This document shows, piece after piece, positions 1,715 to 37,974 of a DNA stretch of 38,521 bases. The stretch is from a virus. The position numbers and the translations under genes were made by a program. The stretch is from IMG/VR virus record IMGVR_UViG_3300037117_000201, positions 1 to 38,521 of that record; one strand, written 5' to 3'. The notes under the pieces were generated by a model, which was not told the origin of the DNA, made no database searches, and saw only the letters and a program-made list of their open reading frames with translations. Within the stretch, counting starts at the first letter, position 1; each line of letters begins with the position of its first letter.

Positions 1715-2145
1715 ACGACGTCGCCATCCCGTCGACGGCGATTCAGCGCCTCATCATCTGGAAGGACGGCGTGCCCGTCCTGGCGTCTGAGCCGGTCCTC
1801 ACGCGCAACACGCTTCAAAACCTCTACTTCGCGGCGGCAGCGCAGCCCTACGAAGTCACAAACCCCCTCGACCCCGACTTCGGCCGCTTTGACGGCATGA
1901 CCATCGCCGAGGTTATGGTGCGCAAGCAGCTCGTCAACGCCGCGCGCTCCGGCGACCGCGCGGACATCGAAGCCGCGATGGATCGCTTAATCGGCAAGGC
2001 CTTGAGCAAATCCGAAAACTTGAACGTCAACCTCGATGACAAATCCTACGAGGGCTTCTTGAAGCGCAAGGCCGACGAGCTGGCGGCAAAGGTCGTCGAG
2101 GCCGAAGTCGTCGAGCCAAATCTGTTCGGGGATCTCGCGCCATGA
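1711..2145 (+). CDS. Putative terminase small subunit with FGDL tail
   Basis: This 144-residue protein starts at GTG 1711, with GGAG at 1699-1702 and 8 nt spacing, and overlaps the upstream micro-ORF as GTGA. The central segment (RKQLVNAARSGDRADIEAAM, then DRLIGKA) resembles the helical pattern of small-terminase-like DUF5681 proteins, where a Gly-Asp and a D-R-x-x-G-K motif recur. The stop overlaps the start of the large terminase (ATGA at 2142-2145), the usual place for the small subunit, which recognises phage DNA and recruits the motor. The C-terminus is NLFGDLAP, a peptide shared with three replication proteins in this genome. The assignment rests on position plus weak similarity. Confidence 0.6.
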   Translation: MNDVAIPSTAIQRLIIWKDGVPVLASEPVLTRNTLQNLYFAAAAQPYEVTNPLDPDFGRFDGMTIAEVMVRKQLVNAARSGDRADIEAAMDRLIGKALSKSENLNVNLDDKSYEGFLKRKADELAAKVVEAEVVEPNLFGDLAP

Positions 2146-3809
2146 ACGTCGTCGATATACACAATCGACTTAACGACGACCTCTGGTTCTTCGCGGAGAA
2201 CGCGCCGCTCGTCGTCCAGGCCAAGAACGGCGAGCTCGGTCCCATGCGGCCCAACCTCGCGCAGCGCTACCTCCACGCGAAAATCGAAGAGCAGAAGCGC
2301 AAGAAGGGTTGGGTGCGCGTGGTCATCGTCAAGGGCCGCCAGGCCGGCATCTCCACTTACGTCGGCGCGCGCGACTACCACTTGGTCACGCGCAACCCCG
2401 GGCTCTCGGCGTCAATCCTCGCGCACGAAGCGACGGCGACTGACAATCTGTTCGGCATGGTGCGGCGCTTCCATCAGAACGTCAACCCCGCGTTGCGCCC
2501 CGAAGTCAGCAAGGACAACCCGCGGCAGATGATCTTCCCGGGCATCAACGGAAAATATTCCGCGGCGACGGCCGGCAACGAGGACGCCGGCCGCAGCACG
2601 ACGTCGCAGCTCGTCCATTGGTCCGAGGTCGCGTACTCGGAAAACGCGGCCGCGATCATCGACTCCATGATGCAGGGCGTGGCCCTGCTTCCTGGCACCG
2701 AGATCATCCTCGAATCGACCGCCAACGGGCCCAAGGGAACCTACTACGAAATCTGCCAGGCGGCCATGCGCGGCGAGGGCGACTACATCTTCGTCTTCTT
2801 GCCGTGGTATTGGCAAGACGAGTACGAACGCGAAGACGACGGCACCCCGCTCACCGAGGAAGAAGAGAAGTTCGTCGCCGCGCACTTCGACAAGCCGTTC
2901 CCGTTCTCGCAAGCGCCCATCTCGCCGGCGCGCGCGCGGCGCAAGATGCTCTGGCGCCGCGGCAAGATCTTCGAGCTCTCGCCGCTCAACCCCCAGGTGG
3001 GGGCAGCGAAGTTTCGCGCAATCTATCCGAGCAATCCCATCGAAGCGTTTCTTTCGACAGCGGTTGGGGAAGTGCGCGCCGACGCCATCGTCACCGCGCG
3101 CGGCCTAGACCAAAAACTCCCGCTCGATGAGATGATGCCGCGCATCGGTGGCTTGGACCCCGCCGGCGAGGGCAAGCGCGCCGACCGCTCCATCCTCGTC
3201 GTCCGCCAAGGCAACGTGTTCGAGAAGGCGTACCGTTTCGCGGGGCTTAACTCCATGCAGCTCGTCAGTCGCGTCGCGCGCTTGCTCGAACAGGAGCGGC
3301 TCGACACGCTCTTCGTCGACAACGGCTACGGTAAGCAAATGGTCGACCGCCTGCACGAGCTGGGCTTTAAGCGCCGCGTGATCGGCGTGTGGTTTAACCA
3401 GGGAACCGACTTCCCCAATAAGTACACCAACAAGCGCTCGGAGATCCACCTGCTCGGCGCCGATTGGATTAACGGCGGCCACGTCTCCATCCCCAACGGC
3501 CCCGGGGTCCAACTCGACGCGCACGCCTGGCTTTGCAGCGGCGACGCCATCCACGCTGACCTCGCCGCACTCCCGATGCACAAAGAGAGGTCGGACGGCA
3601 AGCACTCCATCGCCCCGCGCGAGGACCTCATCAAGATTTTCGGCCAAAGCCTCGACATTTTCGCGGGCTTTGCGTTGACCTACTCCGACCCCGTCCGCCG
3701 CGTGCAGGCCGAAAACTCCTGGCGTCGCGCGGATAATGGTGCTACAATCTCGACACGAAATCGTCAAGGGGGTTTGCGGAGCATGGCGCGAAAGAGGGCG
3801 TTGGGATGA
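2142..3809 (+). CDS. terL: Terminase large subunit (packaging ATPase and nuclease)
   Basis: This 555-residue protein is the motor that pumps DNA into the prohead and cuts it. The ATPase part shows a Walker A-like VKGRQAGIS (residues about 63-71), a Walker B HWSE (159-162) and a coupling segment ESTANGPKGTYYE (about 191-203). The nuclease part begins near GLDPAGEGKRADRS (about 337-350, RNase H-like first Asp) and continues with FVDNGYGKQMVDRL (about 391-404). The length is normal for the family. It starts by an ATGA overlap with the putative small subunit and ends by an ATGA overlap with the GNAT protein. The last 60 bases also contain an extended -10 promoter for the downstream genes. Confidence 0.95.
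   Translation: MNVVDIHNRLNDDLWFFAENAPLVVQAKNGELGPMRPNLAQRYLHAKIEEQKRKKGWVRVVIVKGRQAGISTYVGARDYHLVTRNPGLSASILAHEATATDNLFGMVRRFHQNVNPALRPEVSKDNPRQMIFPGINGKYSAATAGNEDAGRSTTSQLVHWSEVAYSENAAAIIDSMMQGVALLPGTEIILESTANGPKGTYYEICQAAMRGEGDYIFVFLPWYWQDEYEREDDGTPLTEEEEKFVAAHFDKPFPFSQAPISPARARRKMLWRRGKIFELSPLNPQVGAAKFRAIYPSNPIEAFLSTAVGEVRADAIVTARGLDQKLPLDEMMPRIGGLDPAGEGKRADRSILVVRQGNVFEKAYRFAGLNSMQLVSRVARLLEQERLDTLFVDNGYGKQMVDRLHELGFKRRVIGVWFNQGTDFPNKYTNKRSEIHLLGADWINGGHVSIPNGPGVQLDAHAWLCSGDAIHADLAALPMHKERSDGKHSIAPREDLIKIFGQSLDIFAGFALTYSDPVRRVQAENSWRRADNGATISTRNRQGGLRSMARKRALG
3740..3748 (+). promoter_or_regulatory. Possible extended -10 promoter inside the terminase 3' end
   Basis: TGCTACAAT (TG at 3740-3741, TACAAT at 3743-3748) matches an extended -10 element and repeats the wording of other promoters in this window. 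No good -35 box sits 17 nt upstream. It would drive the GNAT, portal and scaffold genes. Confidence 0.45.
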
Positions 3810-4282
3810 CCGAGACCATGACGAGCGAGCACGCTGTCGCCTCCTTCCGGCGCGAGAACGTCAAGCGCATCTGGGACAACCTCGTGCCCCTCCTCGCCCA
3901 GCATTACGAGGAACTCGCCCCCTACAAGGACGTCCCGCTCGACCCCGACAAGGACTTCTTCGTCAAGGCCGACGAGACGGGCATGATTCGCGTCTACTCC
4001 GCGCGCGAGGCCGGCGTGCTCGTCGGCTACGCCGTCTACTTCGTGCGCCGCGACATCCACTACAAGTCGATCAAGCTGGCCCAGCAGGATCTCATCTTCG
4101 TCGACCCCGCGCGCCGCGGGCGCTTCGGCATCCGTTTCATCCGCTGGTGCGAAGCGCAGCTCAAGGGCGAGGGCGTCAACCTCATCATGTGCCACACGAA
4201 GATGGGCGCCGACTTCGGCGCGGTGTTCGAGCATTTGGGCTACGCGCCCATCGACAAGATTTTCTACAAGAGGTTCGCCTAG
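3806..4282 (+). CDS. GNAT-fold protein next to the portal gene
   Basis: This 158-residue protein overlaps the terminase stop as ATGA. The segment IFVDPARRGRFGIRFIRW (about residues 97-114) is the acetyl-CoA-binding motif A of GNAT N-acetyltransferases (R-x-x-G-x-G type, here RRGRFG at 103-108), followed by a beta strand VNLIMCHT and a final strand with GYAPIDKIFYKRF. Such small GNAT-fold proteins are common beside podovirus portal genes, and T7 gp13 belongs to this general group; their role is structural or unclear. Acetyl-CoA binding is plausible because motif A is intact, but a substrate cannot be inferred. The start is supported by GAGGG about 10 nt upstream. Confidence 0.8.
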   Translation: MTETMTSEHAVASFRRENVKRIWDNLVPLLAQHYEELAPYKDVPLDPDKDFFVKADETGMIRVYSAREAGVLVGYAVYFVRRDIHYKSIKLAQQDLIFVDPARRGRFGIRFIRWCEAQLKGEGVNLIMCHTKMGADFGAVFEHLGYAPIDKIFYKRFA

Positions 4283-4600
4283 GTGTGCACGGGAGTTGAG
4301 ATCGCGCTCGCTGTCAGCGCCACCGCGGCCGCGGTCTCGACCGGCGTGGGTGTCGCCAACTACGAGGCAAGCCAAGGTGCTGCCGGCGCCGCCAGGGACC
4401 TCGCGAACCAGCAGCAGGCCCAGCTCAAGGCCGAGCAGGACGCCGCCAGCGCGCAGGCGAAGGCGCAAGAGACGACGGGCGCCACGTTCGGTTTCGGCGA
4501 CAACGAGAAGAGCGCAGTCGCCACCGGCTTCGGTTTTGGCGCCGCGACTCAAACGGGCGCTCCCAACAGCGGGCGCGGCCAGATCACGGGGATGAGCTAG
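4283..4600 (+). CDS. Small virion-type protein, gp14-like N-terminus
   Basis: This 105-residue protein starts at GTG 4283, immediately after the upstream TAG, with AAGAGG at 4268-4273 and 9 nt spacing. The Met-Cys start, an Ala/Val-rich hydrophobic helix (about residues 5-27) and then an Ala/Gln-rich coiled-coil region resemble the beginning of T7 gp14-type internal virion proteins. The C-terminal third is Gly/Thr-rich and probably disordered. It directly abuts the portal start. A short head or ejection component is the best guess; no enzymatic motif is seen. Confidence 0.65.
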   Translation: MCTGVEIALAVSATAAAVSTGVGVANYEASQGAAGAARDLANQQQAQLKAEQDAASAQAKAQETTGATFGFGDNEKSAVATGFGFGAATQTGAPNSGRGQITGMS

Positions 4601-6379
4601 ATGCCCAAAACGACGAAGGAATACATCGGCCGGTTGCGCGAGCTCGAGCAAGAGAAATATCCGTGGCTCGTGCTCTACCAGACGCTCGCCGAAATCTTCC
4701 TCACGCGCAAGATGGATTTTACGCGCGTCATCGTCCCCGGCCAATTCCTCCAAGCCGACGTCTTCGACAACACCGGCCAGTTCTCCGCGTATTTGTTCGC
4801 CTCGATTTTCCTCTCGATGATGCTGCCCGACGCCGCGCGCACCTTCCGGCTCAAGCCTAACTATCGCATCAAGGGTGTGCCGGGCGTCGAGGATTATTTC
4901 CGCTTCGCGACCCATCAGATGCACGAGTACATGGAGAAGCCCAAGGCCGGCCTCTCGATGGCGTTCATGGAGCACTTCTTGGACACCGGCATCTTCGGCA
5001 CGGCCGGAGTGTTCACCGAGGACAACTCGAAGAACGACCCCGAGATGCCGTTGCTCTACGACGCTTGGGGTGTCAAGAACATGTGCATCTCGGAGACGAA
5101 GCAGGGCTTCGTCGACCAGGTCTACTTTATCCGCCCGCTCAAGGTGAAGCAGATCATCACCGAGTACAGCAAGCCCGGCGACTACATCCCGGCGAAGATT
5201 CAAGAGAAGTACAACACCGGCAAGGAGGACGAGGAAATCGACGTCCTCGTCGTCATCGAGCCCAAGAACCCCGAGAAGGACGACCTCGGAAACTTGAAAC
5301 TCGGCAAGGCCGGGATGCCCGTGCGCACGGTCCACATCGCGATCGGCGAGGCGGCGCGACTGCGCGAGGGCGGCTTCGAGGAGATGCCCGTCGCGATCGG
5401 CCGGCTCTTCAAGCAGCTCAACGAGCCCTACGGCCGCTCGTGCGGGATGCTGGCCCAGCCCGACGCGCAATCGCTCAATGTCCTCACCGAAGGCGTGCTC
5501 GTCGCCACCGAGAAATCTCTCGACCCGCCCCTGGGCGTGCTCGATGACGGGCGCCTCGGCGGCGGTATTATCTCCACGGGTGCCGGCGACATCAACGTCT
5601 TCAACACGTCCGGTCGCCAGAGCGACGAGAAACCGATCTTCCCGCTCTTCACCATCGGCGAGTTCATGCAGGCGTTGGATCAGCAGAAGCAGCTCGCGGC
5701 AAAGATCGCCCAGGCCTTCTTCCTCGACCGCCTCTTGGACCTCAACAACCAGACGCAGATGACGGCCTACGAGACGAGCATCCGCGATAAGATCCGCGGC
5801 GAGGCGCTCGGCGGCGTTTTCTCGCGCCAAGAAAAAGAAGTCATGACGCCGACCATCGAGCGGTCGTTCAACATTCTCTTTCGCAACGGCTACCTGGGTG
5901 TCGTGACGAAAGGTCCCGGGGCCAAGCTGCGCAAGTCATGGGATGCGATCGTCGGCGCCGAGAAGGTCACCGTCCCGCCCGTCGTGCTCAAGGCGTGGCA
6001 GGCCGGCCTCAACGTCTTCGAAGTCGAGTACATCTCGCCGGCCAAGCGCTTCCAGCAGGCCGACAAGCTGCGCGGCCTCATGACCGCCACCGACTCGGCG
6101 CTGGCCCTCGCAGGGGTCCAGCCGCAAGTTCTCGACGGCCTCGACCTCGACATGTGGCTGCGCAAGGTCTACGACCTTTCGGGCGGCCCGGTCGAAGTCA
6201 TCCGCACCGAGCAAGCGCTCTTGAAGTTCCGCGCGGCCAACCGCCAGGAAGCCGACAAGCAGAAGCAGCTCGACCAGGGCGAGCAGCAGTCGAACATCGC
6301 GCTCAAGGCCGCGCAGTCGCGGCAGGCGATGGGCACGACGCCGGCCATTCCGGCTGCCGCCGCTGCGTCGGCGAAGTGA
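4601..6379 (+). CDS. Portal (head-to-tail connector) protein, T7 gp8 family
   Basis: This 592-residue protein is the dodecameric ring through which DNA enters and leaves the head. The order and content fit the podovirus head-tail connector family: an N-terminal helical part with YPWLVLYQTLAEIF, the TGQFSAYLFASIFLSMMLP segment (T7-like portals have a comparable region), the GTAGVFTED strand, and a long helical C-terminus with the RFQQADKLRGL and AANRQEADKQKQLDQGEQQ segments. The length is typical. It lies between the GNAT/gp14-like genes and the scaffold, the standard order. The C-terminal Gln/Ala-rich tail is likely the barrel or a disordered end. Confidence 0.92.
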   Translation: MPKTTKEYIGRLRELEQEKYPWLVLYQTLAEIFLTRKMDFTRVIVPGQFLQADVFDNTGQFSAYLFASIFLSMMLPDAARTFRLKPNYRIKGVPGVEDYFRFATHQMHEYMEKPKAGLSMAFMEHFLDTGIFGTAGVFTEDNSKNDPEMPLLYDAWGVKNMCISETKQGFVDQVYFIRPLKVKQIITEYSKPGDYIPAKIQEKYNTGKEDEEIDVLVVIEPKNPEKDDLGNLKLGKAGMPVRTVHIAIGEAARLREGGFEEMPVAIGRLFKQLNEPYGRSCGMLAQPDAQSLNVLTEGVLVATEKSLDPPLGVLDDGRLGGGIISTGAGDINVFNTSGRQSDEKPIFPLFTIGEFMQALDQQKQLAAKIAQAFFLDRLLDLNNQTQMTAYETSIRDKIRGEALGGVFSRQEKEVMTPTIERSFNILFRNGYLGVVTKGPGAKLRKSWDAIVGAEKVTVPPVVLKAWQAGLNVFEVEYISPAKRFQQADKLRGLMTATDSALALAGVQPQVLDGLDLDMWLRKVYDLSGGPVEVIRTEQALLKFRAANRQEADKQKQLDQGEQQSNIALKAAQSRQAMGTTPAIPAAAAASAK

Positions 6380-6399
6380 AAAAAGTAGGGGGGTAGGAC

Positions 6400-6789
6400 A
6401 TGGCAAAGAAGGGGGGAACGGGGTTCACCAGGGCGTTGCCGTCTGAGCACCTGGCCGCGCGCACGAAGGAGCAGGCCGACGACGTCGTGCGCCAGGAAGA
6501 GGCGAAGCGCAAGGAAGCCCGTATTCTTGCGGCCTTCGATTGGATTCTCAAGCAAGAGAACGGCCGCATCGTGTGGGCGTGGCTTTTTGCCCGCTGCGGC
6601 TACAACAAGGCGGTGCTCCTGCGCGCCGCCGGCGGCGACGTGGCCCCGCTCTCGACCGAGTGCGCGGCGGCACAACGCGAGGTCTACCGCGACCTGCGCA
6701 AGATGATTGCCACACCCGAACTCCTGGCCGCGGCCGAGTTCGAGGCCGAGTTTGGCGTCGTGAGATCGAAGGAAGGGGAGAAGAAATAA
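6400..6789 (+). CDS. Bbp19-like small phage protein
   Basis: This 129-residue protein has a strong AGGGGGG site at 6387-6393 before ATG 6400. The core, AFDWILKQENGRIVWAWLFA then a Cys-Gly segment and AAQREVYRDLRKMI, resembles the Bbp19-like phage family, which has a G-R-x-(V/L)-W/L helix, a cysteine-glycine turn and a later charged helix. Members sit between portal and scaffold genes in many podoviruses, and their function is not established. Both ends are lysine- and glutamate-rich. The next gene starts 2 nt after its stop, so the two are almost certainly co-translated. Confidence 0.65.
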   Translation: MAKKGGTGFTRALPSEHLAARTKEQADDVVRQEEAKRKEARILAAFDWILKQENGRIVWAWLFARCGYNKAVLLRAAGGDVAPLSTECAAAQREVYRDLRKMIATPELLAAAEFEAEFGVVRSKEGEKK

Positions 6790-6790
6790 T

Positions 6791-7591
6791 ATGGCCGAGC
6801 CGATTGCCGTGCTGACGCGCGAGTACGTCCCGCAGGAACTCCACGAGTCCGCGTTCATCAAGCCCTGGCTCGACAAGCCCTGGGACAAGACCGTCGGGGC
6901 CGAGTTTTTCAAGAAGCTCGATGGCGCCGAGTCTCTCATCGGCAAGCGCCTGGCCATCCCCGACCACAAGACGGCGACGCCCGAGGAGATGGAAAAGTTC
7001 TTCGAGCAGTTCCGCCCCGACAAGGCCGACGACTACGAGATCCCGCTCGACAAGGACGCCAAGCCTAGCGACGACTTCTTGAAGGCCGTGCGCGCGGCCT
7101 TCCACGCCGGCAAGATCAGCAAAGTCCAGGCGAGCGGCTTTCTCAAGACGATGGACGAGTTCGGGCGCGAGCAGCGCAAGGCGCTGGGGCAAGAGAACGC
7201 TCGCAAGGCTCAAGAGTTCGACACGCTGGCAAAGACCATGCTCGGCGAGCAGAACAAGGCCGTCATGGAGCGCGTGCGCGGGCTCATCAAGCAGTACGCG
7301 CCGTCCGCGGCCGCCCAGAACCTCGACAAGATCACCGACGAGCAGGTCGTCGTCATGGGTTCGATCATCGACGCCATCCACAAGAAGTACGCGACCGAAG
7401 ACGACCTCAACGGCGGCACCGGCAGCACGGGCGGCGGAACCGGCGGCACGACCGCGGCTGAGAAGCGCCGGGAGATGCGCACGCTCATGGGGACCAAGCC
7501 TTACGCCAACTGGCAGGACCCCGCGCACGCCTCGACCAACGCGACGGTCAAGCAACTCGCGAAGGAGATTGCGGCCCTCGAAAAGAAGTAG
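6791..7591 (+). CDS. Capsid scaffolding protein
   Basis: This 266-residue, highly charged, mostly helical protein lies between portal and capsid, the normal position for the scaffold that shapes the prohead and then leaves. Features: an N-terminal half with many Asp-Lys pairs (PDHKTATPEEMEKFFEQF), a long amphipathic helix around residues 100-190, a Gly/Thr linker (GGTGSTGGGTGG, about 213-225) and a basic C-terminal helix ending KQLAKEIAALEKK. Basic C-terminal helices bind coat protein in known scaffolds. GGGGAG lies about 10 nt before the ATG. The last codons of this gene (from 7577) are the left edge of a 94-bp tandem duplication. Confidence 0.8.
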   Translation: MAEPIAVLTREYVPQELHESAFIKPWLDKPWDKTVGAEFFKKLDGAESLIGKRLAIPDHKTATPEEMEKFFEQFRPDKADDYEIPLDKDAKPSDDFLKAVRAAFHAGKISKVQASGFLKTMDEFGREQRKALGQENARKAQEFDTLAKTMLGEQNKAVMERVRGLIKQYAPSAAAQNLDKITDEQVVVMGSIIDAIHKKYATEDDLNGGTGSTGGGTGGTTAAEKRREMRTLMGTKPYANWQDPAHASTNATVKQLAKEIAALEKK

Positions 7592-7606
7592 AATCATCTC
7601 AACACA

Positions 7607-7656
7607 CCGCCCCCACCTACGAGATCGTATGGTGCACCTGGGGTGGTTTTCTTTTT
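7607..7656 (+). terminator. Rho-independent terminator, copy 1
   Basis: CCGCCCC (7607-7613) pairs with GGGGTGG (7640-7646), and an inner stem CACC-TACG / CGTA-GGTG closes on the loop AGAT. The hairpin is followed by TTTTCTTTTT. It lies just after the scaffold stop. Confidence 0.85.
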
Positions 7657-7660
7657 CCCC

Positions 7661-7688: not shown

Positions 7689-7700
7689 CATCTCAACACA

Positions 7701-7750: not shown

Positions 7751-7754
7751 CCCC

Positions 7755-27369: not shown

Positions 27370-27998
27370 GCGTGCCCCTCCCGAGTCGTGCGCCCCGAGC
27401 CGTCGAGCTTCAAATCGACGGTCGGCAGGTCCGCGTCGTCCGCCTCTCCGAGCTGCGCGTCGCTCATGTCGTCGGGCGTTGCGACAGCGCCGGCGACGTT
27501 GGGGAGTGCCAGTGTATTTCCCTTGTCGTCGAAGAGTTGCTTATTCGGTTCACCGGCCTTGCTGCGATCGGGAGACGAGAGCTGCATCCGCGAGCGACAC
27601 TTCTTGACCGGGCATTGGGCCAACATAAAGCCCGTCGACGTGCAGAAGAATCGCATCTCGTGGTCGCAGGCTGGGCACAGAATCTTCTCGCCCTTCGCGT
27701 AGGCCTCCTCCCAGCGCCCGACGAAAGGGTCGTTGCAGGCGATGCCGATTTTGCAATGGTGGCAGACGAAGACCTCGGCCGCCCCGCCTTTGATCGACGC
27801 CTCGAGCATCTCGCCCCATTGCCGCGCCTTCGCGAGTTCCTTGCTGTTGTTGGCGGCCTTGAATTTGACGATGGCCTCGGCCACCATTTGTTCGAGGCGC
27901 TGCTTGACCATCTCGTCGAGACGGCGGTCGAACATCGCGTGGCACAACGGGCAGCGCGGCGTCGTCTTGACGTTCTTGGGGATTCGGACTTTGCTCAT
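27366..27998 (-). CDS. Multi-zinc-ribbon protein between polymerase and resolvase
   Basis: This 210-residue protein starts at ATG 27998, preceded by AAGAGGT, and overlaps the polymerase stop as ATGA. It has three cysteine clusters: CPLCH near residue 15, CHHCKIGIAC near 75, and CPACDHEMRFFC with QCPVKKC near 110-135. This suggests two or three zinc ribbons around a charged helix (DEMVKQRLEQMVAEAIVKFK). The C-terminal 70 residues are acidic and probably disordered. Zinc-ribbon proteins in this position could bind DNA or bridge polymerase and other factors. I do not recognise a named family. Confidence 0.75.
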   Translation of the reverse strand: MSKVRIPKNVKTTPRCPLCHAMFDRRLDEMVKQRLEQMVAEAIVKFKAANNSKELAKARQWGEMLEASIKGGAAEVFVCHHCKIGIACNDPFVGRWEEAYAKGEKILCPACDHEMRFFCTSTGFMLAQCPVKKCRSRMQLSSPDRSKAGEPNKQLFDDKGNTLALPNVAGAVATPDDMSDAQLGEADDADLPTVDLKLDGSGRTTREGHA

Positions 27999-30121
27999 TT
28001 TCGATACCTCTTTCCGATGAATCCTTCCGCCAGCACGGGACAGCCCGCCGTCCACGCCGGTAGGTCCTTCGTCATCATGCCGATCAACTCGGGCAAGCGT
28101 AGCCCGACGTCTCCCGTCAACGGCACTTCCGCGAGCAACTCGTCGTAGTTATGGAGCACGAGCGGGAACTTGCCGCTCATCTCGGCGCGCTCCATCCCGA
28201 CCACCATGAATTCTCTAGCGGCGGTCTGGACGGTGTTCTCGACGAGCTCGCCGCCCCACGTTCTATACTCGCCGAGAAAGCCGTTGCAGCCTGTCCGAAT
28301 CGCGCCCTTGCCTGCGCTCGCCCAGTAGTGCAGCTCGGTCTTCGCGCGTTTCTTAGGGCACAACTCGACGTCGTTCTTGAGGACGTGGGGACAGTCAGGC
28401 GCCTTGCAGCGCGTCGACGTTGCCTGGACGACGCTCGGGGTGTAGTAGCGCAGGAGCCGCCCGCTGGGCAACTTGCACACCAAGTAGACCCGGTCAGCGC
28501 TCATGCCCCACAAGACGCGGCCGCCGGCGACAGGGAAAAGTTGCCCCGGATTGCGCACGGCGTTGACAGCCGCGGCCTCGGTCGCGTACCAGAAGGCGAC
28601 GACGTTGGGGTGCGTCTCGCGGTAGACGGTCTTGGCTTTCTCGGCCAGGTCGTCGTCGAGCCACACGCCCTCGCCCTTCTTCGAGGTCTCGGTGTAGACC
28701 GACCCCTGGAACTTGGCGGCACCCATGCCGAAGCCGAAGCCCAGCTCGCTTCGCTTTCCGATGTCGTACTCGAACGGCGTGCCCTTCTTGGAGAGCCCCT
28801 TCTTCTCGAAGATGCCCTCGGCCATGCGAATGTAGGGCGATTCCCCGCGCGCGAAGAGTGCCATGACCCACTGTTCGCCGGCAAGCCAGTTGAGCACGCG
28901 GCACTCGATGGCGTTGAGGTCGGCACCGACGTAGACGTGGTCTTTCGCCGGAACGATGACAGCGCGGATGAGGTCAGAGAGCGTTTGCATCGCCTTGTCG
29001 CCGAAGGCCGCGCGAAAGAAGCCGACGCCCTCGTTGAGCATCGCAATCGCGAATTCCTGTTGCGCCTCGACGTCTTCGCCGCCGAAGCCCTGGGGTAGAT
29101 TGGCCGGCTGGAAGAGCCGTGCTGTCCACCGCCCCGTGTGCGCGCCGTTGAACTGGAACATCCCGCGCGCCCGCCAGTCCGCGCAGGCGCAGAGCAGCAT
29201 CGTTTTGAACTTGGCGACACTCGATTTTCCGACCTGTTGGCGAATCTTGAGGACGTCGACGACGTGCTTGGGCGTCTCGGGGTCCTTGATAAGGTCCTTG
29301 ACCGCCTCGATGTCGAGCGTCTCCTTGATTTCCTCTTCGTTGGTCTCGCTGTCCATCTCGACGACGGTGGGGATCTTGACACCTTGCGCCGCGACCCAGC
29401 GCTTCATCTCGGGAACGCCGGAGGCCTTCGAGCACGCCCCGCCCGTCATCTTGCGGAGCTGGGCGTTCAAGTCGTCGGTGAGCCCCGCTGCGATCTCGGT
29501 GGCCTTGCGGGCGGCGTTGAGGTCTAACAGGAGCCCGCGGCGGTTGATGCGCAGGTCGATCTCGAAGAGCTTGCGTTCGGAAGGCGGAAACTCGGGCAGC
29601 ACTTTGTCGGCCGCACGCTCAGTCTCGACGTCGATGCCGCAGTAACGGTAAAGCGCGACGTAGGTCGCGGGGTCTTCATCCCAGGTGCCGTCCTTGCGGC
29701 GGCGGCAAGTGGCGTACATCGCCTTCCGGCCCATCATGTCCTTCTGGAAGTTGAGGCGGAGCGACAGCGCCACGCCTTCAAGCGAGCCAGGAAGCCCGCA
29801 CATGTAGGCGCGAGCCTTCGTGCAGTCCCAGCCGGCGGGGTCCAGGCGGTCGGGGAAGCCGTATTTTTTGTGCATGACGAAGTGCCACATCGCGTACTCG
29901 AACTCGACCGAGTGGGCGACGACGCGCCCGACAAAATCGCGCAAGACGGGCGGCTTGGCGCCCCCGCGCAAATCCCATCCCATAACGCCCTGCAGGGGCT
30001 CGTCGTCGACGGCCCAGCGGGCAACGGTGATGTCCGTCGATTCGTGGCTCGCATAGGCCCAAGCGCCGACTTTCGTGATGTCGAGGTCAGAGCGGCTTTC
30101 GAAATCGAGATGGAGTTTCAC
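27995..30121 (-). CDS. Family A DNA polymerase with 3'-5' exonuclease domain
   Basis: This 708-residue replicative polymerase starts at GTG 30121, overlapping the upstream stop as GTGA; a longer frame upstream lies over the previous gene. The exonuclease begins MKLHLDFESRSDLD, with the D-x-E of motif I at residues 6-8. The polymerase palm shows motif A YVGADLNAIECRVLNWLAG (about residues 398-416), motif B KRSELGFGFGMGAAKF (about 455-470), and motif C LHNYDELLAEV (about 655-665). The exonuclease plus polymerase arrangement is that of phage PolA proteins found with DUF2815 and DUF2800 genes. It copies the phage genome. Confidence 0.93.
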   Translation of the reverse strand: MKLHLDFESRSDLDITKVGAWAYASHESTDITVARWAVDDEPLQGVMGWDLRGGAKPPVLRDFVGRVVAHSVEFEYAMWHFVMHKKYGFPDRLDPAGWDCTKARAYMCGLPGSLEGVALSLRLNFQKDMMGRKAMYATCRRRKDGTWDEDPATYVALYRYCGIDVETERAADKVLPEFPPSERKLFEIDLRINRRGLLLDLNAARKATEIAAGLTDDLNAQLRKMTGGACSKASGVPEMKRWVAAQGVKIPTVVEMDSETNEEEIKETLDIEAVKDLIKDPETPKHVVDVLKIRQQVGKSSVAKFKTMLLCACADWRARGMFQFNGAHTGRWTARLFQPANLPQGFGGEDVEAQQEFAIAMLNEGVGFFRAAFGDKAMQTLSDLIRAVIVPAKDHVYVGADLNAIECRVLNWLAGEQWVMALFARGESPYIRMAEGIFEKKGLSKKGTPFEYDIGKRSELGFGFGMGAAKFQGSVYTETSKKGEGVWLDDDLAEKAKTVYRETHPNVVAFWYATEAAAVNAVRNPGQLFPVAGGRVLWGMSADRVYLVCKLPSGRLLRYYTPSVVQATSTRCKAPDCPHVLKNDVELCPKKRAKTELHYWASAGKGAIRTGCNGFLGEYRTWGGELVENTVQTAAREFMVVGMERAEMSGKFPLVLHNYDELLAEVPLTGDVGLRLPELIGMMTKDLPAWTAGCPVLAEGFIGKRYRK

Positions 30122-30516
30122 GGCGCGTCCATCAAGAACTTGATGTGCTCGCAATTCTCGCCCGGCCACGCGATCGTGGCGTGGGGGCAAACGAAGACCT
30201 GATACGGAAGGTGAAGCTGCGTGTCGACGTACTCGACGGGCCAGCGGCGCAGCCAGGCAACGGGGAATTGGTCGCGCTTAAAGTGCTGCCACCAAGAGGC
30301 GGGTTCGCGCACCATGAGGGGCAACGCGATCGGCTTATCGGCGAGGACGTAGGCGCGCAGCTTGAGTATCAAACCCTCAAGCGCCCGCTCGGTCTCGACT
30401 TCAAGCGAGCCCTTCACGAAGGGGACGTCGTCGAGGATTTTACGGACGCCGACTGGCATCCGAAAAATCGTGACCTCAGTCAACTTGTCGTCGAACTTCG
30501 GGATTTCTTTTTTCAT
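30118..30516 (-). CDS. Unknown protein coupled to the DNA polymerase
   Basis: This 132-residue protein is not recognised. It overlaps its upstream neighbour as ATGA and the polymerase start as GTGA. It is rich in aromatic and basic residues in the second half (SWWQHFKRDQFPVAWLRRWP), with two cysteines near the end (FVCPHATIAW, GENCEHI). Part of the N-terminal half is Val/Glu-rich. Tight coupling to the polymerase suggests a replication accessory role, by context only. Confidence 0.65.
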   Translation of the reverse strand: MKKEIPKFDDKLTEVTIFRMPVGVRKILDDVPFVKGSLEVETERALEGLILKLRAYVLADKPIALPLMVREPASWWQHFKRDQFPVAWLRRWPVEYVDTQLHLPYQVFVCPHATIAWPGENCEHIKFLMDAP

Positions 30517-31418: not shown

Positions 31419-31434
31419 CTACCTCACTTGGACT

Positions 31435-32133
31435 CTACCCCAAGTCTCCGAACACGCCACCGGCCGCGGCGGGAGCAGAAGCCGCGGCGGGAGCAGAAGC
31501 CGCGGCACCCGCAGGCGCTCCCGACGGCAACGGGATCGACGCGAAAGCGTCGGCCGCTTCCATGCGGTTGCCCAAGGGCTCGCCGTCCTTCTCGAGTCGG
31601 AGCATGTCGAGCGTGAAGCTAACGCCATTACCGTAAGTCGCCGGCTGGCCAGGCGACGGCCAGGCGTAGGCGTGGAGCTTCGCGCGCATGTAGCAGCCCG
31701 AGTATATCTGATTCTTGTCGATGATGTCCTTGATGTTCTGGTCGACCACAATCGGCCGCCCAAACTTCTCCCTGCGCTTCGTGCGCACGATGATGACGCC
31801 CGGGTTGGCCCCATTCTTGCCCTCATTGTTCTCACCCTTTTTGAAGAGGGGATACTTGAACTTGGGCCACTTCGCACTATCAACGCCCCATCTTTCGGAC
31901 GCTGCGGCCATAGCGGCAGCTTGCATATCCTTGATGCTAACGATCTCCTCGCCCGCGGCCTGCGACTCGGGCGTGTGCGCGACGCGGAACCACATTTCGA
32001 CGCCGTATTCTTTGGCATCAGGCTTGCTAATGTCCGACGCGCGGGGCTCGAACACGTTGAGATACGACGCTCGGAACACCGGCGTCAACACGTCACACGG
32101 GCCTAGCTTCTTCTTCTTCGCTTCAGTAGTCAT
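31435..32133 (-). CDS. Single-stranded DNA-binding protein, DUF2815 type, with FGDL tail
   Basis: This 232-residue protein has AAGGAG about 9 nt before ATG 32133. The N-terminal GPCDVLTPVFRASYLNVFEP, the internal FKYPLFKKGENN and the KDIIDKNQIYSGCYMRAKLH segment are the hallmarks of DUF2815, the phage ssDNA-binding family with an OB fold. It coats single strands during replication. The last 30 residues are an Ala/Pro linker ending GGVFGDLG: the acidic tip found on other SSBs is replaced by the FGDL peptide shared with the primase-helicase, nuclease and putative small terminase. Its neighbour is the DUF2800 nuclease, the usual pairing. Confidence 0.9.
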   Translation of the reverse strand: MTTEAKKKKLGPCDVLTPVFRASYLNVFEPRASDISKPDAKEYGVEMWFRVAHTPESQAAGEEIVSIKDMQAAAMAAASERWGVDSAKWPKFKYPLFKKGENNEGKNGANPGVIIVRTKRREKFGRPIVVDQNIKDIIDKNQIYSGCYMRAKLHAYAWPSPGQPATYGNGVSFTLDMLRLEKDGEPLGNRMEAADAFASIPLPSGAPAGAAASAPAAASAPAAAGGVFGDLG

Positions 32134-32321
32134 CTCGTTTTTCTCCTTTGGTTTAGCGTCTGTCTGTCAAATCGGCCGATCTCAGCTTAAACGACGCCTG
32201 ACCGGCTTCCCGTCTACTGGACCGAGCGCGCTGCATCTTTGGCGGTCATCACACCGCCTGCGCGCCTGGGTCCGACCTCAAGTACCAGCCTCGCGGCTTC
32301 CTTGGGGCCCTTGCCCGCGCT
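32134..32321 (-). other. Intergenic gap between nuclease and ssDNA-binding genes
   Basis: This 188-nt gap, unusually large for the tightly packed leftward operon, holds no convincing gene. Two short frames (15 codons from the ATGA overlapping the nuclease stop, and 11 codons from an ATG at about 32250) are present but weak. A TTGACA (32165-32170 on the minus strand) has no -10 box at the right distance. Confidence 0.5.
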
Positions 32322-33623
32322 TCATTGGGGCCAGAACGCTTCTTTCTTCGCCGGCGGCCCGCCGAGGTCGCCGAAGATGTTCTCGGGTTCGGGCCCGAAA
32401 GTATCCGCGACTCCGAACACCGCTGCGGCGTCGCCGGGCGCGGTGGTCGCAGCCTGGCGCTTGTCGCTCATCTTGGCGACCGTCAGACGCCCGGGCAGCT
32501 TCACCGCGTACTTTGCGACCTCTTCCTTGCCGGCCAGCTTCTCCATCTGCGCCGGCGACTTGAGCTTCCGGTTGTAGCGGTCGTCGCCGAGCATGGCGAA
32601 GGCGGTCTCGACTTCCCCTTCCACCCCCCATGATCTATTGGTCTTGCCTTCGACGAGCTTGTACTCGGCGGAAGCGTTGGGGTCCTTGAGGAGCTCCGCG
32701 TGCATCCGCTCGCGGCAGGCTTCCATGAAAGAGTCGAGGAAATCCTCCCAATCAAGCGCGCGGCCGAGCTGCTCGACGGTCATCTTCTCGACCGGCGGCA
32801 AGTGCATCCCGAGCGCGACTTCCTTGGACGGCGGGGCCGGGATCTTCGTAAAGACCGCCTGCACGCCCCCTTCCAGGGCGCCGCGCGCCTCGGCGCAGTA
32901 GGCCAGGGCCGGGCAGAACGTCTTGTGGCACCACGGGCCCGCCACGCGGGGGGCCTTCTGGTCCTTCGTGCGCGCCACGGCGGCCGCCAGTTCCTTGCGG
33001 AAGGCGTCGAGGCGGCCCTTGGGGAGCTGCCAGGGGCGCGCGGAGCCTTCGTTGTGGCGGGCGCGGGGCTGGACGATGTGGAAGAAGACCTTGTCGAAGG
33101 CCGTGCCCGCCTCGGTGTCCTGCGCGCCGACGAGGTAGATGAGCCCTTGCTTGTTTTCCTCGGCCTCGACAACACCCTTGCCGTACTTGAAGTCGAGAAC
33201 GTGGAGCTCGTTGCCTTTCTGATAGAGGACGTAGTCGGCCGTGCCGTAGACCTCGGCGTCCACCGACGACGCGATGGCGCGAACCTCGGCCAGCGCCACG
33301 ACGGGCGCGGAGCGATGCGGCATCGCCTTGCGGATGCTGGTGATGTGGTCGGCGTACTCGATCACGCCTTCGATCATGGCGTCGGTGATCTCGACCTCGA
33401 AGCCTTCCTGCATGACGGTCTCACCAACGCGGCTCGTTAAGGTGAGCAGGTCGACCTCGCCCGTCACGAAGTCCTCGGCGAGTTGATGGGCCACGACACC
33501 CTCCACGCTGTATTTATTTCCCTTGAATGCGCTCTCGGGCAACGTGGCGATGAGATTGAGGCTGCCGGCGCAGTTGAACCAGCGCTCGGCGCTTGATGGC
33601 GACAGCTTGGCGTGAGTTCCCAT
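32322..33623 (-). CDS. PD-(D/E)XK nuclease, DUF2800 (Cas4/RecB-like), with FGDL tail
   Basis: This 433-residue protein starts MGTHAKLSPSSAERWFNCAG, the typical opening of DUF2800. The nuclease core includes GTADYVLY (Asp 130) and LHVLDFKYGKG (Asp 144, Lys 146), followed by the helix ENKQGLIYLVGA. Cys 18 plus CHKTFCPALAYC (Cys 232, 237, 243) give four cysteines placed as in Cas4/AddB-like proteins that bind an iron-sulphur cluster. It probably trims DNA ends for recombination or replication. Near the C-terminus is NIFGDLGG, 14 residues from the end. Family neighbours (DUF2815, PolA, SNF2 helicase) are all here. Confidence 0.88.
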   Translation of the reverse strand: MGTHAKLSPSSAERWFNCAGSLNLIATLPESAFKGNKYSVEGVVAHQLAEDFVTGEVDLLTLTSRVGETVMQEGFEVEITDAMIEGVIEYADHITSIRKAMPHRSAPVVALAEVRAIASSVDAEVYGTADYVLYQKGNELHVLDFKYGKGVVEAEENKQGLIYLVGAQDTEAGTAFDKVFFHIVQPRARHNEGSARPWQLPKGRLDAFRKELAAAVARTKDQKAPRVAGPWCHKTFCPALAYCAEARGALEGGVQAVFTKIPAPPSKEVALGMHLPPVEKMTVEQLGRALDWEDFLDSFMEACRERMHAELLKDPNASAEYKLVEGKTNRSWGVEGEVETAFAMLGDDRYNRKLKSPAQMEKLAGKEEVAKYAVKLPGRLTVAKMSDKRQAATTAPGDAAAVFGVADTFGPEPENIFGDLGGPPAKKEAFWPQ

Positions 33624-33626
33624 AAA

Positions 33627-33824
33627 TTATTTTCTTCCCCCTTTGCATTTGGGCGTATAGCAGTAGAACCTGTTGCCCGCCCTCTCGTAAACGCCGCGCG
33701 TGGACATGCAGAATTTGCACCCGACGGTGCCCACGACTTCGCTTCGTCCGCGCTCAAGGCGCCGGCGTTCCGCTCGTGAGAGCGACGCATCGCGCGGTGC
33801 CGGCGCCTTGTAGTTCGGGTCCAT
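33627..33824 (-). CDS. Small zinc-finger protein
   Basis: This 65-residue protein has a basic helical N-terminus (LSRAERRRLERGRSE) and a C-terminal CKFC to CYTPKCKGG arrangement of four cysteines, fitting a single zinc ribbon of the C-x2-C / C-x4-C type. It lies 3 nt after its upstream neighbour and 3 nt before the nuclease gene. It is probably a DNA- or RNA-binding accessory protein. Not a named family by eye. Confidence 0.7.
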   Translation of the reverse strand: MDPNYKAPAPRDASLSRAERRRLERGRSEVVGTVGCKFCMSTRGVYERAGNRFYCYTPKCKGGRK

Positions 33825-33827
33825 GAA

Positions 33828-34304
33828 CTATTTCCCGTCCGCCTTTTCCAACTCGGCCTCGAAGGTCGGCGTCAGCTTGAGCCAGTCCTCGGGGGTGAAG
33901 TCTTCGAGCTTCCACGCCGCCGCGGGGGTGCGCGGCAGCCCCAACGTGTCGTTGATGATCTTCTTCGCGCGCTCGAGGCCCGTGGGGCTGGCCTTGAGGT
34001 AGCGGCGAATGAAGAGGCCCATGACTTCCTGGCCGCGGCGGCCGGCTTCAATCGCGTCCTCGGGGGCGAGCTTCGAGGGAGCGGGCTGGCCGCCTTGGTT
34101 GGCGCCGCCGAACGGCGAGTCGACGACCTCGGGCGCGGCTTTGGGGGTGCGCGTCTTGCGCTCCTTTGCGGGCTTCTCGGGGGCCGAAGGCTGCGCCGGG
34201 ACGTCCCCGCGGAACGGCAGCGCGGCTTGGCCGCCGTTGTTGGAGACGTAAAGCGTCAGCGCCTCGGTGGCGACGTCGATGAGTCTTTCGAGCTTCTGCA
34301 TCAT
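33828..34304 (-). CDS. Unknown charged protein of the replication operon
   Basis: This 158-residue protein has AGGAGAA before a double ATG; I take the first (34304), which overlaps the upstream micropeptide stop as TGATG. An N-terminal helix (MMQKLERLIDVATEALTLYV) leads to a Pro/Lys-rich linker (EKPAKERKTRTPKAAPE) and a C-terminal helical domain with GRRGQEVMGLFIRRYLKASP and EDFTPEDWLKLTPTFEAEL. No family is recognised. The three-part shape of helix, basic linker and globular end fits an adaptor or a DNA-bound accessory protein. A position between helicase and nuclease supports a replication or recombination role. Confidence 0.7.
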   Translation of the reverse strand: MMQKLERLIDVATEALTLYVSNNGGQAALPFRGDVPAQPSAPEKPAKERKTRTPKAAPEVVDSPFGGANQGGQPAPSKLAPEDAIEAGRRGQEVMGLFIRRYLKASPTGLERAKKIINDTLGLPRTPAAAWKLEDFTPEDWLKLTPTFEAELEKADGK

Positions 34305-34381
34305 TTCAGTTCTCCTTTTATATTTAAGACCAAAACGAAAAGATTCAACACGCAACCGAGCACGGCAAGAATTTCTATCAT
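34301..34381 (-). CDS. 26-residue single-helix membrane micropeptide
   Basis: The ATG overlaps the helicase stop as ATGA, and its own TGA overlaps the next gene start as TGATG. The peptide (MIEILAVLGCVLNLFVLVLN then IKGELK) is one clean membrane span with an acidic start and a basic end. Its DNA is richer in A/T than the surroundings. The next gene's ribosome-binding site is in its last codons. It is the second such membrane micropeptide in this operon. Confidence 0.6.
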   Translation of the reverse strand: MIEILAVLGCVLNLFVLVLNIKGELK

Positions 34382-35664
34382 GCGCGCCACCCCGCCTCGC
34401 CCATCAATTTTCCGACGACCGAACCCTTCGAATTCTGGACTTGCAGGACCGCCGACTCCATCGTGCCCGGCGCGTGCAAGAGGTAAGCGTTCACGCTTCC
34501 GGCCTTCTGACCGATGCGATGCAAGCGGTCCATCGCCTGGACCATGACGCCCGGCGTCCAATCGAGTTCGGCAAAGACGACCGAGGAGCAGACCTCTTGC
34601 AGGCCGTTAATGCCGGTTCCGGCCGCTTGAATCTGGCCTAAAAAGACTCGGACGCCGGCCGACTTGAACGCTTCGATCGCGTGGTGCTTGCCGGCATCGT
34701 TCATGCCGCCCTGGTAGGCCACACTTCCGAGGCCGCTAATCGAGCAGGCCGCGCGCAGCGCCTCGCCGACGTCGGTGTGCTTAAAGAAGACGACGACCTT
34801 CTCTTCGGTTTCGAGCAAGTCGTTGATGAAGCCCATCGTCGCCGCAATCTTTGCGAGGCCCGTGGCGTGAAGAAGGGCCGCCATGTCGCCCAACTGCGAG
34901 TAGTTCTCCGACGCCGCGGAAATCTTCGCCTCTCGGTCAAGGATCTCGCGCTCGGCGCGGTCGATGATTTGCTGCGCGGCGGCGGCCAGCTTGAGCGGCA
35001 CGCGGGAAACAAGACGCGCGGGGAGCTCGGGGAGCACTTCGTCCTTCGTGCGCCGAAGCATGAAGCCGCCGAGGCGGATGCGCAGCTCGTCGACATTCGA
35101 CGCTCCGCGCGTGTCCATCTCGCGGCCGTTGAAGTAAGAGCCGCAGTAGCGCTGCGCGTAGACGGCCCAGCTCATCTCGGCAAAGCCGCCGTGTAGATTT
35201 TTTAGGAGGGGCCAGAGTTCGCGCGGCCTGTTTAAGACGGGCGTGCCCGTGAGCGCCCAGCGGGCGCGCAGGCGCGGGCTGCGGGCGAGGCCGCCCTTGC
35301 CGAAGATCGCCTGCGTGCGCTTGGAATCGGGCGTCTTGAGGTAGTGGGCTTCGTCCAAGACGAGGCCGTCGTAGCCGCGGTCGAAATCACAGCCGCCCCG
35401 CACGGCCTGTTCGTAGGAGATGACGTTCCACAAACCGGCAGCGCCGCACTCATGGACCTCTTGATGCCAGCCCATCCGTACCGACGCTGGGCACACGACG
35501 AGGATGCTGCGAAGGTCGAGGCGCACGGCCGCGTCGATGGCCTGGACGGTCTTACCGAGGCCGGGCTCGTCAGCGAGCAGCGCGTGGGGATTGCTTTGGA
35601 GGAAAAGCGAGCCGTGAACTTGAAACGGTTTCAGTCTCTTTTTTAACATGGGGTAATCTCGCAT
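34378..35664 (-). CDS. SNF2-family DNA helicase/translocase
   Basis: This 428-residue protein shows the SF2/SNF2 motifs in order: Walker A LADEPGLGKT (residues about 30-39), DEAH (104-107), LTGTP (138-142), and motif VI QAMDRLHRIGQ (376-386). The RLHRIGQ wording is specific to SNF2 proteins. The compact size resembles the phage helicases found next to PolA and DUF2800 genes. It probably remodels forks or clears proteins from DNA. Its promoter lies immediately upstream at 35686-35714. An alternative start at the sixth residue (MLKKRLKPFQ) fits just as well. No Shine-Dalgarno site is clear before either. Confidence 0.92.
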   Translation of the reverse strand: MRDYPMLKKRLKPFQVHGSLFLQSNPHALLADEPGLGKTVQAIDAAVRLDLRSILVVCPASVRMGWHQEVHECGAAGLWNVISYEQAVRGGCDFDRGYDGLVLDEAHYLKTPDSKRTQAIFGKGGLARSPRLRARWALTGTPVLNRPRELWPLLKNLHGGFAEMSWAVYAQRYCGSYFNGREMDTRGASNVDELRIRLGGFMLRRTKDEVLPELPARLVSRVPLKLAAAAQQIIDRAEREILDREAKISAASENYSQLGDMAALLHATGLAKIAATMGFINDLLETEEKVVVFFKHTDVGEALRAACSISGLGSVAYQGGMNDAGKHHAIEAFKSAGVRVFLGQIQAAGTGINGLQEVCSSVVFAELDWTPGVMVQAMDRLHRIGQKAGSVNAYLLHAPGTMESAVLQVQNSKGSVVGKLMGEAGWRA

Positions 35665-35685
35665 TGACTTTTGTTTACGTTCATA

Positions 35686-35714
35686 ATTCTAGCAGACGCG
35701 CCGCGAATTGTCAA
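35686..35714 (-). promoter_or_regulatory. Consensus sigma-70 promoter for the helicase and downstream replication genes
   Basis: On the minus strand TTGACA (35714-35709) and TAGAAT (35691-35686) are separated by exactly 17 nt, and TGC before the -10 makes it extended. This is the best promoter in the window. It lies in the 150-nt gap between primase-helicase and SNF2 helicase genes. The predicted 5' leader before the helicase ATG is about 15 nt. Confidence 0.85.
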
Positions 35715-35814
35715 CACTTATTTTTCCGCGCTCTCGAAGATAACAATGGCGAGGCCCCGCCGTGAGTGCGGATCTGTTGCGGGTGATTTCGCGCTTGAAA
35801 GCCGAGACCGTACA

Positions 35815-37974
35815 TTAGGCGAGGTCTCCGAACACGCTCATGGCCTCTTCCTTCTTCACCGAGCGCGCCGGCGCGGGCGCGACGCCTGCGCGCCAGAAGC
35901 CCCGCACCGCACCGCCGTCGCGCCACTTAAACCCCGCCGACCATTTGAGGTCCTTGAGCGCCTTTGCAATGCCGATCTGCTCGTGCCGGGAATAGCGCAC
36001 GTCCATCCCGCCCATGGCACCGATGAAAACTTCGCGGCCGGTGTAGAAATCCTCGCGCGTCTCTTTGTTCTTGTCGCGCTCTTTAATCCAATCGCCCACG
36101 CGCTCGGCCCACGGGTGGTCGGCGACGCGCTCAGCCTGCGCCGCCCGCGCGGCGTCCTGCAATTGCGTTGTGTCCATCTTGAGCGCCTCCCCCTTCCTGT
36201 ATAGCGCGACCGCCTCGGCCCACAGCATATCGCGCACGGCCTTGAGCCCGACGAAATCAAACACGGGGCCGACAACCGCGTGGCACATCACGGGCCACCA
36301 ACGCCGGTTCTCGTCGTCCTTCAAATAGGTGCCGTCGGGGCCCGGGTTGTAGGTGCCGATGAAGATGCCCTGGCGCGGGTAGCGCCCCGGCAAGCGCCCG
36401 TAAGCCATGCGCGCCTCGTCGACTTGGCGCGTGAGGAAGGACTTAACCATGTCGATGTCGGCCTGGCGCGTGGCGTGGAGGTCGGGCATCTCGACTAACC
36501 ACTTGCCCTGCATCATCTGGATTGTGTCCTTGTCGCCGACGTTCATCTTAAAGTCAGAGAACCATTCCCCGCCCAGCACCGCGCAAACTCCACTCTTGCC
36601 GAGCCCCTGGCGTCCCTCGAGCACGAGGACATGGTCGAATTTGATGCCGGGCTCGTAGACGCGCGCGACCGCGGCCACGAGGGTCTTGCGCCCCACCGCG
36701 GCCGCGTAGCCGTCCGTGCCGGCTTCGACGCCAAGGTATTTGGAGAGCCAGCCATCGAGCCGCGACTCGCCGTCCCACTTGAGTGCGTTTAAGTATTCCT
36801 TGACGGGGTGAAAGCGCCGAAACTGCGAAACGTCGACCATGGCGTCGACGAGATTGGTCATGCCCGTCTCGTAGCCGTGGTTGCGTGCCAGATGCGCGCG
36901 CATCCGTTGGAGGTCGATATCGGAGACGGGAAGGCCCGGCAACGCACGCCAGGGCGTTTCCCGCATGAGATCCACGCGGCGCGCGAACTCGTTGTAGCCG
37001 AAGCAGCCGCGCAAGCCGACCGACGGCAAGCTCAAATAGTTGAGCGTGTTTTGCAGGCAGCTCACGGGCTGCTTCTTGTTGTCGAGCTTCCAGCCTGACT
37101 TGCCGACCGCTTCTTCGACGTCTTCGGCGTTTTGCTTGGTCGCAGCGCTTTGAGCCTTGGCCGATTCGACCTTGTCGAAGTACGCGGCGGGGTGCGCGCT
37201 TCCGGCAGCGCCCTTGGCGTAGGTGTAAGCGTGCTGGATTTTCTCGACGAATTGCTCCTCGGTCTTCGGGACCGGGCGCCGGTCGTTCCACGATTCGAGG
37301 AGGAGCTGCAACGCGACCTTGGGGCTCACGCCCAGGTCGCGCAGGCCGCAGACGACTTTGTAGGTGCCGACCGTCGGGGCCATCATGAGGTAGGCGAAGC
37401 ACCGCGCGCGCGTGGCTTCGTCGTCTTGATAGGCGGCCGTGCCCGCCGCACCGAAGTCCTTGACGGGCAGGCGCTTGATGAGGTCTAGGAGAGCTTGCGG
37501 AGCCTGCGCAACGCTCGCAGGAGATCCTTGTAGGTGAAAGTATCCTTTGCCCGTCTCGGGGTGAACGCTGCCCGGGCCGACGACCTGGCGGCCGGGGCCG
37601 GCTTTGAACTCGATGCCGCGAAATTCTGGGATGGCGTTGCGAACAGATAAATCACGCGGCTTTTCGAGAAAAATATGTAGCCCACCGCCGCCGGTCTTTG
37701 TGACCAACGTCCCGGCCGGGATGCCGCCGATCGCTTTGGCAAGGCGGTCGAGAGGTTTATCGTCTTTTTCATAGTTGCGTGGGTCCACGTCGACGACGAG
37801 GTCTTGCGCACCGAGCACGACACCGTAATTTTGATCGGAGCCGATTGTTTTTTCGTCGTGCTTCGAGAGCGGGCTGTTTTCCCATTGCGACTCGACGGGC
37901 TTTTTGCCATCAAGCGGTATGATAGGAAAACCGGCCGCCAAAAACGCGCGGATTGCTTCCGCCTTGGTCTTCAC
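35815..37974 (-). CDS. Primase-polymerase fused to VirE/D5-type helicase, with FGDL tail
   Basis: This 719-residue protein starts at GTG 37974. The N-terminal PrimPol domain shows the catalytic VVDVDPRN (Asp 62, Asp 64), TGGGGLHIFLEKP with His 100, and FKAGPGRQVVGPGSVHP (about 123-139). The C-terminal AAA+ VirE-like helicase shows Walker A LEGRQGLGKS (about 452-461), a Walker B-like WLVEMPDLH (about 492-500) and a sensor-like IFIGTYNPG. It would lay down primers and unwind the fork. The last residues are MSVFGDLA, the peptide shared with the ssDNA-binding protein, nuclease and putative small terminase. Confidence 0.9.
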   Translation of the reverse strand: MKTKAEAIRAFLAAGFPIIPLDGKKPVESQWENSPLSKHDEKTIGSDQNYGVVLGAQDLVVDVDPRNYEKDDKPLDRLAKAIGGIPAGTLVTKTGGGGLHIFLEKPRDLSVRNAIPEFRGIEFKAGPGRQVVGPGSVHPETGKGYFHLQGSPASVAQAPQALLDLIKRLPVKDFGAAGTAAYQDDEATRARCFAYLMMAPTVGTYKVVCGLRDLGVSPKVALQLLLESWNDRRPVPKTEEQFVEKIQHAYTYAKGAAGSAHPAAYFDKVESAKAQSAATKQNAEDVEEAVGKSGWKLDNKKQPVSCLQNTLNYLSLPSVGLRGCFGYNEFARRVDLMRETPWRALPGLPVSDIDLQRMRAHLARNHGYETGMTNLVDAMVDVSQFRRFHPVKEYLNALKWDGESRLDGWLSKYLGVEAGTDGYAAAVGRKTLVAAVARVYEPGIKFDHVLVLEGRQGLGKSGVCAVLGGEWFSDFKMNVGDKDTIQMMQGKWLVEMPDLHATRQADIDMVKSFLTRQVDEARMAYGRLPGRYPRQGIFIGTYNPGPDGTYLKDDENRRWWPVMCHAVVGPVFDFVGLKAVRDMLWAEAVALYRKGEALKMDTTQLQDAARAAQAERVADHPWAERVGDWIKERDKNKETREDFYTGREVFIGAMGGMDVRYSRHEQIGIAKALKDLKWSAGFKWRDGGAVRGFWRAGVAPAPARSVKKEEAMSVFGDLA

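Follow-up and report, generated by a model that had tools for sequence, protein, structure and literature searches.

Four proteins of one phage, namely a DUF2815 single-stranded DNA-binding protein (SSB), a PrimPol-helicase, a DUF2800 nuclease and a small-terminase-like protein (TerS), share a short peptide with the consensus [LIV]FGDL[AG] at or near their C-termini. The sequences lend good support to its interpretation as a docking peptide common to replication, nuclease and packaging proteins. The stretch of DNA analyzed here (the window) is the whole 38.5-kb IMG/VR virus record and encodes 38 predicted proteins. FGDL occurs in 4 of the 38 and nowhere else, and all four copies lie within the last 18 residues. 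TerS (1597–2145, plus strand) ends in ...VVEPNLFGDLAP*, with FGDL of the terminal NLFGDLAP at 2125–2136. On the minus strand, the SSB (31435–32133) ends in ...AAGGVFGDLG*, with FGDL at 31441–31452, and the PrimPol-helicase (35815–37974) in ...EEAMSVFGDLA*, with FGDL at 35821–35832. The DUF2800 nuclease (32322–33623, minus strand) ends in ...EPENIFGDLGGPPAKKEAFWPQ*, with FGDL of NIFGDLGG at 32364–32375. The last residues are thus AP in TerS, G in the SSB, WPQ in the nuclease and A in the PrimPol-helicase. The original prediction had placed the peptide at these four positions, and all were confirmed in the sequence. The DUF2800 copy is not terminal but internal, 13 residues before the stop.

The sharing far exceeds what the composition of the proteins would produce. 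In shuffles of the 38 proteins, 0.0105 proteins with FGDL in the last 24 residues were expected, none of 20,000 shuffles reached even three, and the exact probability of at least four is 4e-10. A shuffled-sequence estimate had been proposed earlier as a check, and it shows that four FGDL tails are not expected by chance. When any 4-mer was allowed, 6 of 5,000 shuffles contained one common to at least four proteins. Since the codons differ between the copies, the motif does not stem from a recent DNA duplication, in agreement with the earlier argument.

The plus strand carries a podovirus-type structural module with a T7-like head–tail connector, and the minus strand a replication module consisting of a family-A polymerase, the DUF2815 SSB, the DUF2800 nuclease, an SNF2 helicase and the PrimPol/VapE helicase. 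The SSB matches PF10991 with 86 bits against a curated cut-off of 26 (E = 3e-24), as well as phrog_112, and its core has an OB fold like those of the Enc34 SSB and T7 gp2.5 (Foldseek: 5odj, E = 1e-9; 1je5, E = 1e-8; also 4jg2 and 4klk). The protein is a DUF2815/Enc34-type SSB, for which ssDNA binding is predicted. Its linker is Ala/Pro-rich, with one Asp, and is not acidic; the tail has a pLDDT of about 50 in the AlphaFold monomer and is predicted to be disordered. The DUF2800 protein is a PD-(D/E)XK nuclease (PF10926, E = 6e-57; PF12705; phrog_69 exonuclease), and the VapE-like primase-helicase matches PF09250, PF05272, phrog_256 and others. The family-A polymerase (PolA; 27995–30190) matches PF00476 below the cut-off and is homologous to PolA of other DUF2815 phages; it ends in EGFIGKRYRK, without the tip. 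The SNF2-type helicase (34378–35664; PF00176/PF00271) is likewise without the tip in the window. The right end of the contig, about 38410–38521, is a tandem repeat with a unit of roughly 18 bases (CGCCTCGATGCCCGAGCC-like).

TerS lies directly upstream of TerL and overlaps it, and its homologs adjoin TerL in L006, L011, L014/G002, L018 and L020/G005. It has no Pfam or PHROG match and no match among annotated phages, and the TerS alignment was too diverse for use as a scan query. The only close relative found, L006, is an 8.8-kb fragment with a portal identity of 82%, in which TerS ends in IEAEVIEPSVFGDLA, compared with VEAEVVEPNLFGDLAP in the window. FGDLA is kept in this relative behind a linker of different length and sequence, and synonymous changes affect three of the five codons of FGDLA. 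The TerS tip is selectively conserved, as the original prediction had anticipated in expecting a constant tip on varying linkers; TerS is the sole protein comparable in L006. The SVFGDLA tip of the L006 TerS is identical to that of the PrimPol-helicase in the window. More distant TerS homologs have other ends, ..EVVEPETQEEPWTLL in L011 and ..VIDITLEPDGDERMFS in G002. The TerS of L015, L018 and L020 stops at ..E[AE]DVIDI, exactly where the window tip starts, and has no tip, for which reason G005 was not counted as tip-sharing. These differing or absent ends indicate that the tip behaves as a module added after a conserved EAxVI[DE] segment.

Genes 1 and 2 (304–711 and 743–1498, plus strand) are paralogues of an uncharacterized family whose homologs immediately precede TerS in related phages. 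The family has no Pfam or PHROG match, and for gene 2 an AlphaFold model with a pLDDT of 73 yielded no convincing PDB fold match. Gene 2 is without the tip. The weaker variant FNLLDDE proposed for gene 1 (within DFNLLDDE, 676–699) is weak when taken alone, but a member of the family in L072 carries the clear tip DDLLGDL, and the SSB of that genome ends in DDILGDLT. DDLLGDL is internal in the L072 protein, as FGDL is in the DUF2800 nuclease; if these copies work, the tip can do without a free C-terminal carboxylate.

The comparison was extended to other phages by scans with DUF2815 alignments, which yielded 73 viral loci and 13 genome loci. Scans of the viral contigs with single-protein SSB or PrimPol queries gave no relatives, and alignments were required. 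The relatives are mostly metagenomic contigs, whose genes were called by open reading frame. Across this set, the SSB cores have diverged from one another, and a variety of short hydrophobic tips closes their tails. FGDL itself is otherwise lineage-specific, and distant phages have other tips that match within each genome. L093 has DPLFW on the SSB, DPLFQ on DUF2800 and DPLFH on PrimPol; L085 has DPLA on the SSB, PrimPol and a TolA-like protein; the matching ends are SDEFDL, DDFSDL and DDFGDL in L061, and SVFD and TIFD in L062. In Bradleyvirinae/Pamexvirus phages, SFLD of the SSB is paired with DFLE of a TolA-like protein; Pseudomonas phage PaMx74 has this SFLD/DFLE pair. This Lys/Ala-rich protein (L010:14570–15040 and relatives) belongs to phrog_17205, has no known function and adjoins the SNF2 helicase.

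The matching within genomes was assessed by a permutation in which tips were swapped between lineages, with SSB cores clustered at 55% identity and the window excluded; kinship is only partly controlled by this design. SSB tips match those of DUF2800 (P = 1e-4, 28 lineages), PrimPol (P = 0.006–0.02, 19 lineages) and SNF2 (P = 0.003, 26 lineages), the last carried mainly by L108, L116, L066 and L117. The SSB–RuvC match is weak (P = 0.04–0.10), and single cases look real, such as QEIFE in L055. No excess was found for SSB–PolA (P = 0.58, 26 lineages). An all-gene test on 28 genomes, with no preselection of families and the window excluded, gave 5 own-genome matches with a score of at least 20, against 0.57 expected (P = 9e-4); with the window included, 7 were found against 0.65 expected (P = 5e-5). 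The excess was gone when the last 10 or 20 residues were removed, and under the strict score many DUF2815 lineages have no matching tips. These results show that tip sharing is non-random and that tips match within the genomes of other phages. The common docking peptide of the original prediction is thus upheld in its pattern, by sharing far above chance, by the conserved TerS tip and by its repetition in distant DUF2815 phages, but not in its letters, since FGDL is replaced there by other tips. PolA ends in the DUF2815 set never match the SSB, with one exception: the family-A polymerase at L095:1076–3103 has a C-terminal extension, PTDYNI, like SDFNI of the SSB and EDFLDI of DUF2800 in the same genome. 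Given this polymerase and a few SNF2 helicases with tip-like ends, any of the core proteins may be a tip bearer.

Matching tips are also found on small terminases of two unrelated families. In MW202898 (L001), the protein ending in INIFD belongs to the Sf6-type small terminases (PF20901), to which the window TerS gives no match; the SSB of this phage ends in DDLFN and its TerL in DYDVFG. Sf6-type TerS proteins over the cut-off were found in eight records. They end like their own SSB in five (L001, L055, L062, L066 and L126) and have no SSB-matching tip in L075, L110 and L114; the TerS of the L058, L064 and L072 genomes has no matching tip either. In L066, which is the same phage type as the Nitrosovibrio sp. 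Nv4 loci, the SSB ends in GVFDD, TerS in NPFDD and SNF2 in NPFED; the matching tips of the Nv4 prophage are VFDD, NPFDD and NPFED. G002, a relative of the window phage, has RMFS on TerS, GMFS on the SSB and EMFT on a C5 DNA methylase. A C5 cytosine DNA methylase at L144:6908–7963 ends in EMFT, which matches the MFS tips of the G002 SSB and TerS. DNA modification may belong to the same hub.

The arrangement resembles that of phage T7, in which an SSB of the same fold and a primase-helicase share a short C-terminal tip: gp2.5 ends in EDGDF and gp4 in NDTDF, both in DF, as the corresponding window proteins end in GVFGDLG and SVFGDLA. The T7 tails have a strongly acidic character and end in Phe, whereas the SSB tail of the window is not acidic, no window tail ends in an aromatic residue, and the motif can be internal. 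The gp4 tails bind basic patches of the family-A polymerase gp5 (PMC12593628), and the gp2.5 tail has been implicated in contacts with the polymerase and the primase-helicase (PMC5686142). T7 provides a two-protein precedent among the proteins checked; sharing by four, including a nuclease and a small terminase, goes further and suggests that the peptide gathers machines at one place. The window SSB is a member of the DUF2815/Enc34 type by its fold matches (5odj, 4klk and 4jg2) and PF10991, but the consulted passages of PMC5686142 make no mention of other phage proteins with the tail tip of the SSB. Among open-access papers matched by words rather than meaning, sharing of such tips beyond T7 was not reported.

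Partners are likewise recruited by the bacterial SSB tip DDDIPF, which is short and hydrophobic and sits on a disordered tail; a phage example is the HK620 SSB, whose last six residues recruit Sak4 (PMC5928155). In that system, however, the SSB alone bears the tip and the partners bear the pocket, whereas several proteins bear the same tip here, its sequence changes between lineages and the internal DUF2800 and L072 motifs, if working, need no free carboxylate. The sliding-clamp motif (QL[SD]LF) offers the likeness of a short hydrophobic peptide on many unrelated replication and repair proteins competing for one hub, but its first-position Gln is absent from the four tips and GDL after Phe lies outside it.

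From these patterns we infer binding, a common receptor, its identity and a coupling of replication to packaging. We consider it probable that FGDL is a docking tip of the kind borne by T7-type phage SSBs, modular and specific to its lineage, and that it takes proteins of replication, recombination and packaging to a single receptor. Flexible linkers would present the same tip on the SSB, the PrimPol-helicase, the DUF2800 nuclease and the small-terminase ring alike, and one pocket on the common receptor would take whichever tip is locally most abundant. The helicase, nuclease and terminase would thereby be gathered and exchanged on newly made DNA, and replication, end processing and packaging would be coupled. 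The receptor is most likely phage-encoded, because the tips seem to follow the phage lineage across host groups: NEDFLN is common to the Tissierella and Varibaculum loci. We tentatively name the family-A polymerase as a candidate, on the basis of the T7 analogy and of a polymerase end that almost never matches the tips, although this end may simply be structurally fixed. The SNF2-type helicase is an alternative candidate; in a few other genomes its end resembles that of the SSB.

The main rival to the polymerase is the SSB itself, since C-termini occupy the groove in crystals. Here the tip would occupy, in cis or trans, the groove with which the OB fold binds DNA, and the tip-bearing proteins would dock on the SSB, a reading that we regard as unlikely. 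Crystals of T7 gp2.5, the Enc34 SSB and further DUF2815 proteins have C-termini seated in the groove of neighboring molecules (PMC5686142), the SSB is, by construction, the only protein common to all genomes compared, and the polymerase (L095) and SNF2 (L066, L108 and L117) can bear similar ends themselves. Conversely, the tip is disordered and not docked in the groove of the AlphaFold monomer, which is weak evidence, and tip and ssDNA would compete for the same surface, as established for T7 gp2.5 (cited in PMC5686142); such competition argues against docking on a DNA-bound SSB.

A host protein that reads the tip, in the manner of the readers of the sliding-clamp motif or the bacterial SSB C-terminus, appears less likely still. 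The SSBs of a DUF2815 clade (L052, L053, L056 and L057) end in the bacterial tip DDDIPF despite their different, gp2.5-type fold family; this apparent capture of the host SSB interactome indicates that capture of host readers happens in the DUF2815 SSB family. In the window, however, none of the four tails ends in Phe, the DUF2800 motif is internal, and no clamp-motif Gln precedes any tip (EPNLF, AGGVF, PENIF and AMSVF); the tracking of phage lineage across hosts also speaks against a host reader. The clamp motif was rejected because Gln at position 1 of a pentapeptide ending in Leu-Phe is absent from all four tips. The bacterial SSB C-terminus was rejected because the window tails have no acidic stretch and terminal Pro-Phe, features present only in the SSBs of the L052 clade.

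A role of the tails as C-terminal degrons (with ClpXP-like -LA/-LG ends) that time the removal of early proteins is very improbable. Three of them end in short hydrophobic or small residues, but the conserved part is FGDL rather than the final two residues, and the SSB and TerS would be destroyed together despite acting at different times. The degron was rejected because the conserved residues are not at the extreme C-terminus, the motif being internal in DUF2800 and followed by AP in TerS. A chance or compositional likeness of short C-termini, which might account for looser matches such as the -DL endings in G005, is hardly credible given the FGDL probability in the window, the absence of excess in upstream segments and PolA ends, and the synonymous conservation in L006.

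Returning to the docking tip with a phage-encoded receptor, how phages bring newly copied DNA to the packaging machinery is largely open, and a shared tip would be a directly testable physical link. A broader reading, to which we give slightly less than an even chance, is that T7-type-SSB phages use a private, swappable address code, in which a lineage-specific tip has a cognate phage receptor and replication, recombination, modification and packaging proteins join by gaining the tip, TerS doing so in two unrelated families. The label borne by the SSB would in that case also hold packaging physically at the site of replication. Several bacterial defence systems are stimulated by phage SSBs (PMC13381803), and through a shared tip other phage proteins could come to be sensed in the same way. 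Matching tips within a genome could also reveal unknown hub members from sequence alone. A shared tail of another kind is seen in L118, where the SSB ends in ..SGLPPLTPR and DUF2800 in ..PKLPPLTLS.
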